DNA from: a bacterium
GTDB lineage: Bacteria; AUK180
DNA: 13,394 nt
Assembly: GCA_030622125.1 (NCBI GenBank)
Contig: JAUXGM010000052.1
Span: 1 to 13,394 of the forward strand
Direction of reading: 5' to 3'
Shown here piece by piece: positions 3,819 to 13,078 of the stretch (position 1 is the stretch's first letter; every line of letters starts with the position of its first letter). A program made the position numbers and the translations under genes. Below the pieces are notes generated by a model, which worked only from the letters and a program-made list of their open reading frames with translations, did not search any database and had not been told where the DNA came from.

Positions 3819-4418
3819 ATGAAGAAAGAGAAGAAAATAATAAAACTTATTGAGGAAAAGGGAATAATTCGTGTTAAAGAGGTAGAATCTTTGAATATTT
3901 CAAGACAATATTTATATCGACTTGTAAGAAGAGGAATTCTTGAAAAGGTTAATAGGGGTATGTACAAAATAAAAAATAGGAAATTCCCCGATGATGAAAT
4001 GTTACTTATTCTTACAAAAAAAATCAATAATTTTACAATATGCCTTTTGAGTGCACTTCAATATTATAACATGACAACTCAAAACCCCTCCCAAATATGG
4101 GTTGCGGTAAAAAATAACTATCGCATTCCTAAAATAAATATTCCCATAAAAATCAATAGATTCAGTGGTAAATCTTTAACATCGGGTAGAAAAAAGGTTA
4201 AAGTTGGCAATATGGAATATTTTATATATAATTCAGCGAAAACAGTATGTGATTGTTTTAAATTCAGAAATAAAATCGGACTGGATATTGCAATTGAAGC
4301 TTTGAAAGCATATATAAAAGATGAGCATGGAGATATTAATGAATTGTGGAAATTTGCAAAGATCGATAGAGTGGAAAGGATTATAAAACCCTATATCTAT
4401 AGTTTGTTAAATGAATAA
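3819..4418 (+). CDS. abiEi: AbiEi-family antitoxin and transcriptional repressor
   Basis: This 199-residue protein has an N-terminal winged helix-turn-helix at about 1-52 (IIRVKEVESLNISRQYLYRL, then RGMYKI). The AbiEi C-terminal domain follows at about 70-199, with LSALQYYNMTTQNPSQIWVAV and the signature KTVCDCFKFRNKIGLDIAIEAL at 141-162. Length and domain order fit type IV AbiEi antitoxins, which repress their own operon and neutralise AbiEii without forming a stable complex with it. AAAAAGGA precedes the ATG by about 6 bases, and the start lies 50 bp after a consensus promoter with inverted repeats. The stop overlaps the abiEii start by 8 bp, indicating translational coupling. The gene is visibly richer in A/T and lysine than the surface-protein gene upstream, which together with the flanking repeats suggests transfer. 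Confidence 0.9.
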   Translation: MKKEKKIIKLIEEKGIIRVKEVESLNISRQYLYRLVRRGILEKVNRGMYKIKNRKFPDDEMLLILTKKINNFTICLLSALQYYNMTTQNPSQIWVAVKNNYRIPKINIPIKINRFSGKSLTSGRKKVKVGNMEYFIYNSAKTVCDCFKFRNKIGLDIAIEALKAYIKDEHGDINELWKFAKIDRVERIIKPYIYSLLNE

Positions 4419-5271
4419 GAAAAATTTGGTTCAATCTATAAAAGATAAGTTATTAAATATTGCAAAAGAGGAAAATGTTAATTACAATTTTATTCTTATT
4501 AAATACGGTACTGAAAGTTTTCTACAGCGATTAGCGTTATCAAAATATAAGAATAATTTTATTTTAAAAGGTTCAACTCTATTTTATATATGGTTTGGAA
4601 AAGGTTTAAGACCCACTTATGATGTTGATTTTTCAATTAATAAGGGTTATACACTTGAAGAGATTTTAAAAATTGTACAAGAAATATGCTCTGAAATAGA
4701 TGTTAATGATGGAATTAAATATGATCTTAATTCAATAAAAGGTAGAAAAATAATGAATCAAAGGCAAGAAATTGGGTATAGAATAAAAATAAGAGCTAAA
4801 TTAGGAAATACACAAATCCCAATACAAATAGATCTGGGACTGAATAATTCAATTAGTCTATTTACAGATACAATTTCATATAAAAAAATCTTGGATAATA
4901 AATCATTTTCAATATTGGCTAATTATCCGGAGATAGTTATTGCTGAAAAATTTGAATTCATTGTGAAATCCGGAATGTTTAACAGTCGTATGAAGGATTA
5001 TTATGATGTTTGGTTTTTGTTAAAGAATTTAAAAATAAGAAAGGATATACTAAAAAAAGCAATGATAACAACATTTAATAAAAGAAAAACGAGATTACCA
5101 AAAAACATTCCTGTTGGCTTAAAAAAGGAATTTTACAATAATAGGGAAAAGCAAGTTATGTGGGAGGCATTTTTAAAAAGAATTAATATAGGAATAACAC
5201 CGTTAGAAATTGTTATTAAAGAAATAAGAAAAACAATACTCCCAGTGATAAAAAATATAAATGAACTTTAA
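4411..5271 (+). CDS. abiEii: AbiEii/AbiGii-family nucleotidyltransferase toxin
   Basis: This 286-residue protein carries the family's nucleotidyltransferase motifs in order. FILKGST is at 50-56 and TYDVDF at 69-74, with the two metal-binding aspartates D71 and D73. IPIQIDLG is at 136-143, where D141 is the likely third acidic residue. IVIAEKFEF is at 175-183 with K180, and SRMKDYYDVWFLL at 192-204. Family knowledge: AbiEii toxins are DNA-polymerase-beta-fold nucleotidyltransferases that arrest growth, and AbiE systems protect against phages by abortive infection. Some homologues add nucleotides to tRNA acceptor stems. All catalytic positions look intact, so an active toxin is likely. The ATG overlaps the end of abiEi by 8 bp (ATGAATAA). 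No terminator is visible after it. Confidence 0.9.
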   Translation: MNKKNLVQSIKDKLLNIAKEENVNYNFILIKYGTESFLQRLALSKYKNNFILKGSTLFYIWFGKGLRPTYDVDFSINKGYTLEEILKIVQEICSEIDVNDGIKYDLNSIKGRKIMNQRQEIGYRIKIRAKLGNTQIPIQIDLGLNNSISLFTDTISYKKILDNKSFSILANYPEIVIAEKFEFIVKSGMFNSRMKDYYDVWFLLKNLKIRKDILKKAMITTFNKRKTRLPKNIPVGLKKEFYNNREKQVMWEAFLKRINIGITPLEIVIKEIRKTILPVIKNINEL

Positions 5272-9525: not shown

Positions 9526-9554
9526 ATTATAATAAAAAATGATCTAAAAATCAA
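9526..9554 (-). promoter_or_regulatory. Housekeeping-type promoter for the barrel-kinase-regulator operon
   Basis: On the minus strand, TTGATT (9554-9549) and TATAAT (9531-9526) are separated by 17 bp. The -10 ends only 13 bp before the ATG at 9512, so a transcript starting at the usual distance would have a leader of about 6-7 bases and no room for a Shine-Dalgarno sequence. Confidence 0.55.
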
Positions 9555-9592
9555 AAAAAGGGGAGGGGAAGGGGGACAGTTTTCTGCCCCCC
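9553..9592 (-). terminator. Hairpin after the coiled-coil protein gene
   Basis: On the minus strand GGGGGGCAG (9592-9584) pairs with CTGTCCCCC (9579-9571) over 9 bp with one G-U wobble and an AAAA loop. The wobble is an A-C mismatch on the plus strand, so the structure favours minus-strand RNA. A run of seven Ts follows, but only after an 11-base C-rich stretch, so it may be a weak terminator that lets some transcripts continue into the signalling operon. Confidence 0.5.
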
Positions 9593-11551: not shown

Positions 11552-11581
11552 AAGCACCTCCGTATGTTTTGATATTAAAAC

Positions 11582-11597
11582 AGCAACTACTGTGCCA
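11582..11597 (-). promoter_or_regulatory. Sigma-54 (-24/-12) promoter for the coiled-coil protein gene
   Basis: The minus strand reads TGGCACAGTAGTTGCT, against the consensus TGGCACGNNNNTTGCW. GG and GC are exactly 10 bp apart, and only the G after TGGCAC differs. Transcription would start near 11571, giving a leader of about 20 bases that just includes GGAGG before the ATG at 11551. This geometry makes a chance match unlikely. Confidence 0.8.
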
Positions 11598-11649: not shown

Positions 11650-11660
11650 AATAAACGATA

Positions 11661-11676
11661 TGGTACACTCTTTGCC
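11661..11676 (+). promoter_or_regulatory. Second sigma-54-type element, facing citXG
   Basis: TGGTACACTCTTTGCC has GG and GC exactly 10 bp apart and keeps the TTGC core. It deviates from consensus at three informative positions. The predicted start near 11687 would leave a leader of about 105 bases before citXG. An extended -10 (TGGTATAAT, 11681-11689) lies just downstream and overlaps that start, so the same area could also serve the housekeeping sigma factor. Confidence 0.45.
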
Positions 11677-11746: not shown

Positions 11747-11775
11747 TTGAGAAAAATTTTAAAAAGTGGTATAAT
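11747..11775 (+). promoter_or_regulatory. Housekeeping-type promoter of citXG
   Basis: TTGAGA (11747-11752) and TATAAT (11770-11775) have a 17-bp spacer and an extended-10 TG (11767-11768). The -10 ends 16 bp before the ATG, so the leader would be about 10 bases and start around the AAAGGTG ribosome site. Confidence 0.65.
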
Positions 11776-11791
11776 TATATAAAGGTGAAAG

Positions 11792-13078
11792 ATGAAAGAC
11801 GCAATCCTTAATGCCAGAGAAAAACGGTATCAATATCAGAAAAAATTGTTAAAAAGGCACAATAAATTGATCACATTTTCTCTTACTCCGCCGGGAAATA
11901 GAAAGGTAACAAAAAATTACACAAAATATTTTTCTTTTGTAAGTAAAATATTTGAGGAGAATTTTAAAAAGATACTCTTTAAAAAAGATGAGATCATTGA
12001 TGATGGCGGTTATCAAACAACCTATTTTTTTAAAAAGGATATTTCATTATTAAAAAAGCAATTTGTTGAGTTTGAAAATATCTACATTTTCAATATTATC
12101 GATATAGACATAATAACCGTTGAAGCCGGAATTATGAGGCGAAGAGACCTCGGTTTAAGTGAAAGAAAGTGCATTGTTTGTAAAAAAGGAAGTTCCAAAG
12201 AATGCTTTATAAATGAAAATCATTCTATATCCGATGTAAGAAAAGAATATCTAAAAAGGGCTAAAAGAATTGTCTCTATAAAGAAGATAAAGAAAAACTT
12301 AAAAAGGCAATTAAAGAATTCACTTTTTATCGAACTTACCACAACACCAAAGTATGGACTTGTCGATCTTATGGGAAAGGGAATTCATAAGGATATGGAT
12401 TTTAAACTTTTTGAAAAATCAATTGATGTGATCTGTAATGATATTGACATACTTTTTGATCTCGGTATAAATACATTGAGGATAAGAGAAAAGGTTACCT
12501 TGAACAATATCCGTAAAAAAGGTAAGATCATAGAAGATAAGATGTTTAAAATAACAAAAGGGATAAACACATTAAAGGGTGGAATATTTATATATTCATT
12601 AATATTTTTTTCAATTGGTTTTGCAATTACCCATAATGAAGACATAGAACCGAATTCCATATTCGGCTATATAAAGAATATTACGAACAAGATAACGGAT
12701 GAACTATCAAATAAGAATTTAAAGTCATTTTCCAGATTATGCTACGACAAATATAATGTTACGGGCATCAGAGGTGAGGTTGAAAACGGGCTTTCGTCCG
12801 TTCGGAAAGTATTGAATATCAATCTTAAATATCAAAGTATAAATGAGCTTTCATTAAGAAGATTTTTATATCTTTTCAAAAATTGTGATGATACCCAGGT
12901 AATAAAAAAAATCGGTTTAAAATTATATAGAAAGATACAGAAAAACATTGATCCTTCCAATTGCAATTTAAATGAAGAATTGGAAAAATATCGTTTATAT
13001 GTTGAGAAATACCATTTCTCTGCGGGCGGTGTTGCCGATCTACTTTCCGTTGTTTTTTTTATGGGGACGGTGGCATGA
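11792..13078 (+). CDS. citXG: Fused CitX-CitG: citrate lyase prosthetic-group synthesis
   Basis: 428 residues. The N-terminal CitX part (about 1-160) has LNAREKRYQYQKKLL, TPPGN and the signature RRRDLGLSERKCIVC at 116-130. CitX transfers the phosphoribosyl-dephospho-CoA group to the acyl carrier subunit of citrate lyase. The CitG part (about 175-428) has TPKYGLVDLMGKGIHKDMDF (185-204), KGINTLKGGIF (256-266), TGIRGEVENGLSSVR (324-338) and SAGGVADLLSVVFF (410-423). CitG makes the triphosphoribosyl-dephospho-CoA precursor from ATP and dephospho-CoA. The usual NTHKG reads NTLKG here. The final residues GTVA come from a dispersed GGGGACGGTGG repeat, so the natural C-terminus may be slightly replaced. 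No citrate lyase subunit, ligase or transporter gene is in the window. The start is supported by AAAGGTG 5 bases upstream. Confidence 0.88.
   Translation: MKDAILNAREKRYQYQKKLLKRHNKLITFSLTPPGNRKVTKNYTKYFSFVSKIFEENFKKILFKKDEIIDDGGYQTTYFFKKDISLLKKQFVEFENIYIFNIIDIDIITVEAGIMRRRDLGLSERKCIVCKKGSSKECFINENHSISDVRKEYLKRAKRIVSIKKIKKNLKRQLKNSLFIELTTTPKYGLVDLMGKGIHKDMDFKLFEKSIDVICNDIDILFDLGINTLRIREKVTLNNIRKKGKIIEDKMFKITKGINTLKGGIFIYSLIFFSIGFAITHNEDIEPNSIFGYIKNITNKITDELSNKNLKSFSRLCYDKYNVTGIRGEVENGLSSVRKVLNINLKYQSINELSLRRFLYLFKNCDDTQVIKKIGLKLYRKIQKNIDPSNCNLNEELEKYRLYVEKYHFSAGGVADLLSVVFFMGTVA

Follow-up and report, generated by a model that had tools for sequence, protein, structure and literature searches.

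A predicted sigma-54 promoter before a secreted rod-protein gene and a linked NtrC-type regulator with an altered GAFTGA loop in Candidatus Mcinerneyibacteriota

The window analyzed here, a stretch of 13,394 nucleotides, is an entire contig (C28) of a 2.08 Mb draft genome of Candidatus Mcinerneyibacteriota. Its minus strand carries a gene for a secreted rod-like protein preceded by a sigma-54 -24/-12 element, followed by genes for a predicted outer-membrane beta-barrel protein, a membrane histidine kinase, and an NtrC-type response regulator (Table 1). Comparisons were drawn across seven genomes of the phylum (G000-G006), of which G000 is the genome of the window, while G005 (3.2 Mb) and G006 represent a second family. 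The block is flanked by an AbiEi/AbiEii type IV toxin-antitoxin pair (3819-5271) and by a divergent CitX-CitG fusion gene for citrate lyase prosthetic-group assembly (11792-13078), whose extended sigma-70-like promoter (11747-11775) lies in the same intergenic region as the sigma-54 promoter. A search of the window for known RNA elements found none.

Table 1. Features of the rod-protein gene and the adjoining sensor-regulator operon, in the order in which the minus strand is read
Feature	Position	Strand	Basis or remark
Candidate regulator-binding element GTACCATATCGT	11655..11666	-	Counterpart in orthologue promoter: palindromic GTACCATATGGT
Sigma-54 -24/-12 promoter element TGGCACAGTAGTTGCT	11582..11597	-	Exact TGGCACN5TTGCW match
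Predicted transcription start (+1)	11571	-	12 nt counted from C of the -12 GC
Shine-Dalgarno sequence GGAGG	11557..11561	-	5-nt spacer to ATG 11551
Secreted protein, 648 aa	9605..11551	-	ORF, domain matches, AlphaFold2, Foldseek
GC-rich stem-loop behind the rod-protein gene, probably a terminator or processing hairpin	9571..9592	-	9-bp stem, -19.9 kcal/mol, z -2.9
Sigma-70-like promoter TTGATT-17-TATAAT of the downstream operon	9526..9554	-	Promoter scan
Predicted outer-membrane beta-barrel protein, 436 aa	8202..9512	-	25% identical end to end to orthologue
Membrane histidine kinase, 406 aa	6992..8212	-	H-box His 212, HATPase_c domain
NtrC-type response regulator, 427 aa	5712..6995	-	Receiver, AAA+, Fis-type HTH
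Codons for GAATGV, altered sigma-54-contacting loop	6369..6386	-	GAFTGA in canonical activators

The promoter element TGGCACAGTAGTTGCT has the GG at -24, the GC at -12, and the 16-bp layout typical of its class, and differs from TGGCACGNNNNTTGCW by a single mismatch at position 7, where A replaces G; an A at this position is common among exact matches across the phylum. No other stretch of the window matches TGGCACN5TTGCW exactly, and base composition predicts about 0.005 such matches in 13.4 kb. When exact matches were counted on both strands with the reversed pattern as control, the window genome held seven against none for the control (about 0.7 expected by base composition), and the seven phylum genomes together held 32 against three. 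False matches to the motif do occur, since G001, G002, and G004 each have one exact site that falls within an open reading frame. Other exact sites stand before genes for Hsp20/DnaK, secreted TPR, OmpA-like, and prepilin-like proteins, which are sensible genes for sigma-54 control. All seven genomes encode rpoN. The preliminary description of this DNA had held that a genome without this gene would speak against the promoter; the copy in the window genome was instead found to be intact (PF04552, E 6.9e-52; a 474-aa open frame with the RpoN box ARRTTAKYRE).

Counting from the predicted transcription start gives a leader of 20 nt up to the ATG. The longest open reading frame opens at an upstream GTG (11557), but the ATG is better placed relative to the ribosome site. 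Upstream of the coiled-coil gene, its strand has no sigma-70-like promoter with a score above 9/12. The near-consensus minus-strand element with one departure, and the leader of about 20 bases with a well-placed GGAGG, had both been proposed in the preliminary description, and both are borne out by the mismatch count and the computed spacing. We consider the site very likely to be a genuine sigma-54 promoter. Taken alone, such a promoter is ordinary, and the literature searched contained no description of sigma-54 regulation in Candidatus Mcinerneyibacteriota.

The product of the gene behind this promoter appears to be built as a head on a long rod. A putative signal peptide, recognized by inspection of the protein sequence, is followed by a beta-sandwich (residues ~22-105), an acidic linker (~109-126), and an all-helical coiled-coil region from residue 128 to the end. 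The beta-sandwich resembles CnaB domains in Foldseek searches, and the CarboxypepD_reg family (PF13620) matches the window protein below its cut-off (E 1.3e-5) and the orthologue described below above it (E 3.7e-10). An AlphaFold2 model computed from a two-sequence alignment (mean pLDDT 71) places about 500 residues in long helices. Together with the putative signal peptide, this predicted helical region makes the earlier label of a secreted coiled-coil protein a fair one. No NCBIfam family matched the protein at the threshold used, and thus no PEP-CTERM sorting signal was seen. Display of the rod protein at the cell surface is probable.

A GC-rich hairpin and a sigma-70-like promoter separate the rod gene from the three genes that follow. 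At the corresponding locus of G005 (L058), a different hairpin occupies the same place after the rod gene, and the promoter position holds a perfect TTGACA-17-TATAAT (12/12 consensus). Because this promoter of their own lies behind a hairpin in both genomes, the last three genes are best regarded as a separate operon, and the placement of the regulator in the next operon downstream had been right. Judged from this arrangement, the rod gene forms a predicted sigma-54 unit and the sensor-regulator genes a predicted housekeeping unit. A single operon running from the sigma-54 promoter through the regulator was rejected as the simplest reading, given that both elements intervene in both genomes; some read-through from the sigma-54 promoter past the hairpin may occur.

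Within the downstream operon, the kinase gene overlaps its neighbors on both sides and is therefore counted as part of it. The kinases of the window and G005 share 28% identity over the aligned region, and the regulators share 49%, with nearly identical DNA-reading helices. A structure model of the barrel protein was uninformative (mean pLDDT 27), and the second half of its orthologue weakly matches BBP2_2. The G005 barrel gene is interrupted by an in-frame TGA (L058 7705-7707), beyond which normal-looking sequence continues; this may be a nonsense mutation, an assembly error, or a case of recoding. A further small secreted helical protein is encoded in G005 at L058 11004-11888, overlapping the regulator gene, and has no counterpart in the window.

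Searches with the 648-residue protein returned a single full-length relative, in G005, which aligns along its length; identity is 27% over the segment aligned by BLAST and 31% over the full alignment. A scan of the genome contigs with the rod protein found the G005 contig alone, and among 98 domain-wide relatives only G005 was recovered, apart from short N-terminal matches in one genome. The gene order of coiled-coil protein, likely beta-barrel, histidine kinase, and NtrC-type regulator on one strand is common to both genomes, while the outer neighbors of the four-gene block differ entirely. The four genomes of the window's own family lack the rod gene, so that its distribution is patchy. Neither the rod gene nor a close match to the regulator was found in the other five phylum genomes, and the two consequently appear to have been gained or lost together. 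Conservation of the module hence rests on the one, rather divergent, pair of genomes that carry it.

The promoter is conserved along with the gene. In G005 the element TGGCACTTGAATTGCT (L058 4390-4405) ends 51 bases before the ATG of the orthologue, whose ribosome site is GGAGGAG, and no sigma-70-like promoter was found in the region upstream. G005 has three exact -24/-12 matches in 3.2 Mb, one of which fronts the orthologue; by our own arithmetic, the probability of this placement by chance is about 1e-4. The element is thus kept before the sole detectable orthologue, including the GG/GC pair, the loss of which in relatives retaining the gene had been named beforehand as an observation that would count against the promoter.

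The two promoter regions also share a candidate regulator-binding element, GTACCATATCGT in the window and GTACCATATGGT in G005, placed at -69 and -88 from the -24 box, respectively; a second TACCATA copy lies at 11685-11679 in the window. Each of the two genomes with the module has a single copy of the 12-mer GTACCATATSGT, located within this promoter region, and the matches of the 12-mer in the rest of the phylum (G001, G003, G004) lie in or beside coding sequence only and were taken as chance. Since the pattern was derived from these very promoters, its rarity is suggestive only. In shuffle tests, a shared element of this quality was reached in 11 of 500 trials for the last 140 bp with 15-mers, and in 180 of 500 under the least favorable setting (full regions, 12-mers).

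The regulator itself departs from its family in the loop that contacts sigma-54. This loop reads GAATGV in the window regulator and NIATGV in its G005 orthologue, neither of which has an aromatic third residue. The remaining machinery is in place: the AAA+ motifs GESGTGKE, LFLDEIGD, FREDLFYR, and GNVREL are intact in both regulators, and the AAA+ domain of the window regulator matches PF00158 (E 1.7e-61), with intact Walker A/B, arginine-finger, and sensor motifs. This preservation suggests that ATP-driven remodeling is still under selection. The nine other activators of the genome carry GAFTGA, one of them in the form GAFTNA. No other loop without Phe or Tyr was seen among the readable sampled regulators, which included the best matches from 386 genomes, and no further regulator with an ATGV loop was present among those best matches, the loops of a few loci being unreadable. 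The window and G005 regulators cluster only with each other (support 97/91), which makes a single origin of the changed loop likely.

Replacements of the loop Phe by residues other than Tyr have been treated as inactive for sigma-54 (PMC3162934), and for PspF, PMC2941729 cites Zhang 2009 for Tyr alone being able to replace it. On account of its GAATGV loop, we therefore do not count the window regulator among proven sigma-54 activators. It may act in an unusual manner, together with a partner, or without touching sigma-54. The preliminary description of the neighbor as an NtrC-type sigma-54 activator agrees with its NtrC type and intact AAA+ domain, but the altered loop does not support a working sigma-54 activator. 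The proposal that the coiled-coil protein is the regulated output is probable and agrees with the promoter and the retained gene order, while direct activation is called into question by the change from Phe to Ala.

Several known systems resemble the module in part. In their survey of sigma-54 promoters, Francke et al. 2011 (PMC3162934) described genes for the cell exterior with a -24/-12 element and an intact rpoN, as well as secreted or envelope products beside an NtrC-type two-component regulator, and the present locus is alike in both respects. It differs in belonging to Mcinerneyibacteriota and in that the linked regulator does not satisfy the GAFTGA criterion of the survey. A departed sigma-54 loop is shared with NtrC-family proteins without GAFTGA that work on sigma-70 promoters, such as Rhodobacter and Caulobacter NtrC, HupR, TyrR, and VpsR (PMC10274813, PMC3162934), and the response regulators among them have the same receiver-AAA+-Fis architecture as the window regulator. 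In contrast to the Caulobacter and Rhodobacter NtrC proteins, which have deletions within the loop, the window loop is full length, with Phe changed to Ala, Ala changed to Val, and Thr kept. Moreover, unlike in this group, the gene next to the window regulator has a conserved sigma-54 promoter. The PrsK/PrsR pair of PEP-CTERM/exosortase systems likewise combines a kinase and an NtrC-type regulator near secreted surface proteins. Membership in this system was rejected, as the regulator scored 328 bits against a cut-off of 502.6 (TIGR02915) and the kinase 32 bits against 300 (TIGR02916).

Considering these observations together, we lean towards the following explanation. The sigma-54 promoter would drive expression of a secreted protein whose CnaB-like head is joined to a long rod of helices, and a separate sigma-70 promoter would keep the barrel, kinase, and regulator operon at a basal level. 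Upon an envelope signal, the kinase could phosphorylate the regulator, which might bind the palindromic element some 60-90 bp ahead of the -24 box, thereby switching the rod protein on. The regulator might open the sigma-54 complex itself by means of its A-T-G-V loop, or team up with an activator that has a normal loop. We infer the direction of control, from regulator to rod gene. That the linked regulator controls the rod gene at all is probable. The more specific proposal, that a regulator without the loop Phe opens the conserved sigma-54 promoter to which it is linked, either by itself or in rings mixed with a normal activator, is one we put forward tentatively and with less than even confidence. 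If it were true, an aromatic residue thought indispensable for sigma-54 activation would be replaceable in a native system. The module presents a conserved pairing of a regulator that fails the published sigma-54 test with a linked target that has retained a perfect sigma-54 promoter, and the question of whether the GAFTGA Phe is essential in nature can be tested on this one small module.

Alternatively, though we regard this as rather unlikely, one of the nine GAFTGA-type or GAFTNA activators encoded elsewhere in the genome could open the promoter, and the linked regulator could have lost its contact with sigma-54 and act, at this promoter or at others, in repression or in sigma-70-type regulation, in the manner of TyrR, HupR, or Rhodobacter/Caulobacter NtrC. 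Such a loss would account for Phe having given way to Ala in both orthologues, in a position where all other readable sampled regulators have Phe or Tyr; substitutes are at hand in the nine activators, and NtrC proteins lacking GAFTGA and acting on sigma-70 promoters are documented (PMC10274813, PMC3162934). It fits less well with the perfect sigma-54 promoter kept before the linked target in both genomes, with a loop that retains Thr and the second Gly next to intact ATPase motifs, and with the loop deletions that set the Rhodobacter and Caulobacter proteins apart. An improbable further alternative is that the sigma-54 promoter is real and the kinase and regulator operon controls unrelated genes, their linkage being incidental or reflecting a shared structural role of barrel and rod. 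The hairpin and separate promoter that part the two units, and the weak significance of the shared upstream element, would be in keeping with this possibility, but the gene order is maintained across two families amid entirely different outer neighbors, and the rod gene and a close regulator match are both absent from the other five genomes. It is very improbable that the 16-mer matches by chance and that an unrecognized promoter serves the gene: although about 0.7 exact matches are expected genome-wide and single sites in G001, G002, and G004 sit inside open frames, the site lies on the correct strand with fitting leader spacing, the element recurs before the orthologue, the pattern is enriched 32:3, and neither upstream region has a strong sigma-70 promoter.

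The survey of exact sites yielded further observations across the phylum. In six of the seven genomes, such sites precede genes for Hsp20 and/or DnaK (L007, L069, L074, L076, L083, L091), which suggests sigma-54 control of chaperones throughout the phylum. Links between sigma-54 and chaperones have been reported elsewhere (PMC12316311). In G005 and G006, exact sites stand before the gene for a radical-SAM-like protein and before ABC transporter genes that follow short peptides (L079, L084, L085), and these loci are possibly modified-peptide systems. One exact site (L002 1182-1167, minus strand) ends 12 bases short of the earliest possible lpxC start; it would either produce a transcript nearly without a leader or be a chance site.

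Four other exact sites, one each in G000, G001, G002, and G004, are located about 55-60 bp after a sigma-54 regulator gene, with no clear gene behind them (L008 1293-1118 minus, in G000:C171; L086 1501-1690; L072 and L087 1516-1395 minus). Beyond each of them lies a strong hairpin, GGGAAGGYGC...CCTCCTT...GCRCCTTCCC, for which Rfam holds no matching family. Each of these four genomes has exactly one occurrence of the pattern and none of its reversed control. Three of the four folds expose the anti-Shine-Dalgarno sequence CCUCCUU in the hairpin loop, the remaining folded stretch having ended before the hairpin closed, and G000 and G002 have a second loop of the CCTCCTT type. The hairpin looks like a candidate small RNA under sigma-54 control that could cover ribosome sites, in a layout that resembles LuxO with its Qrr RNAs.
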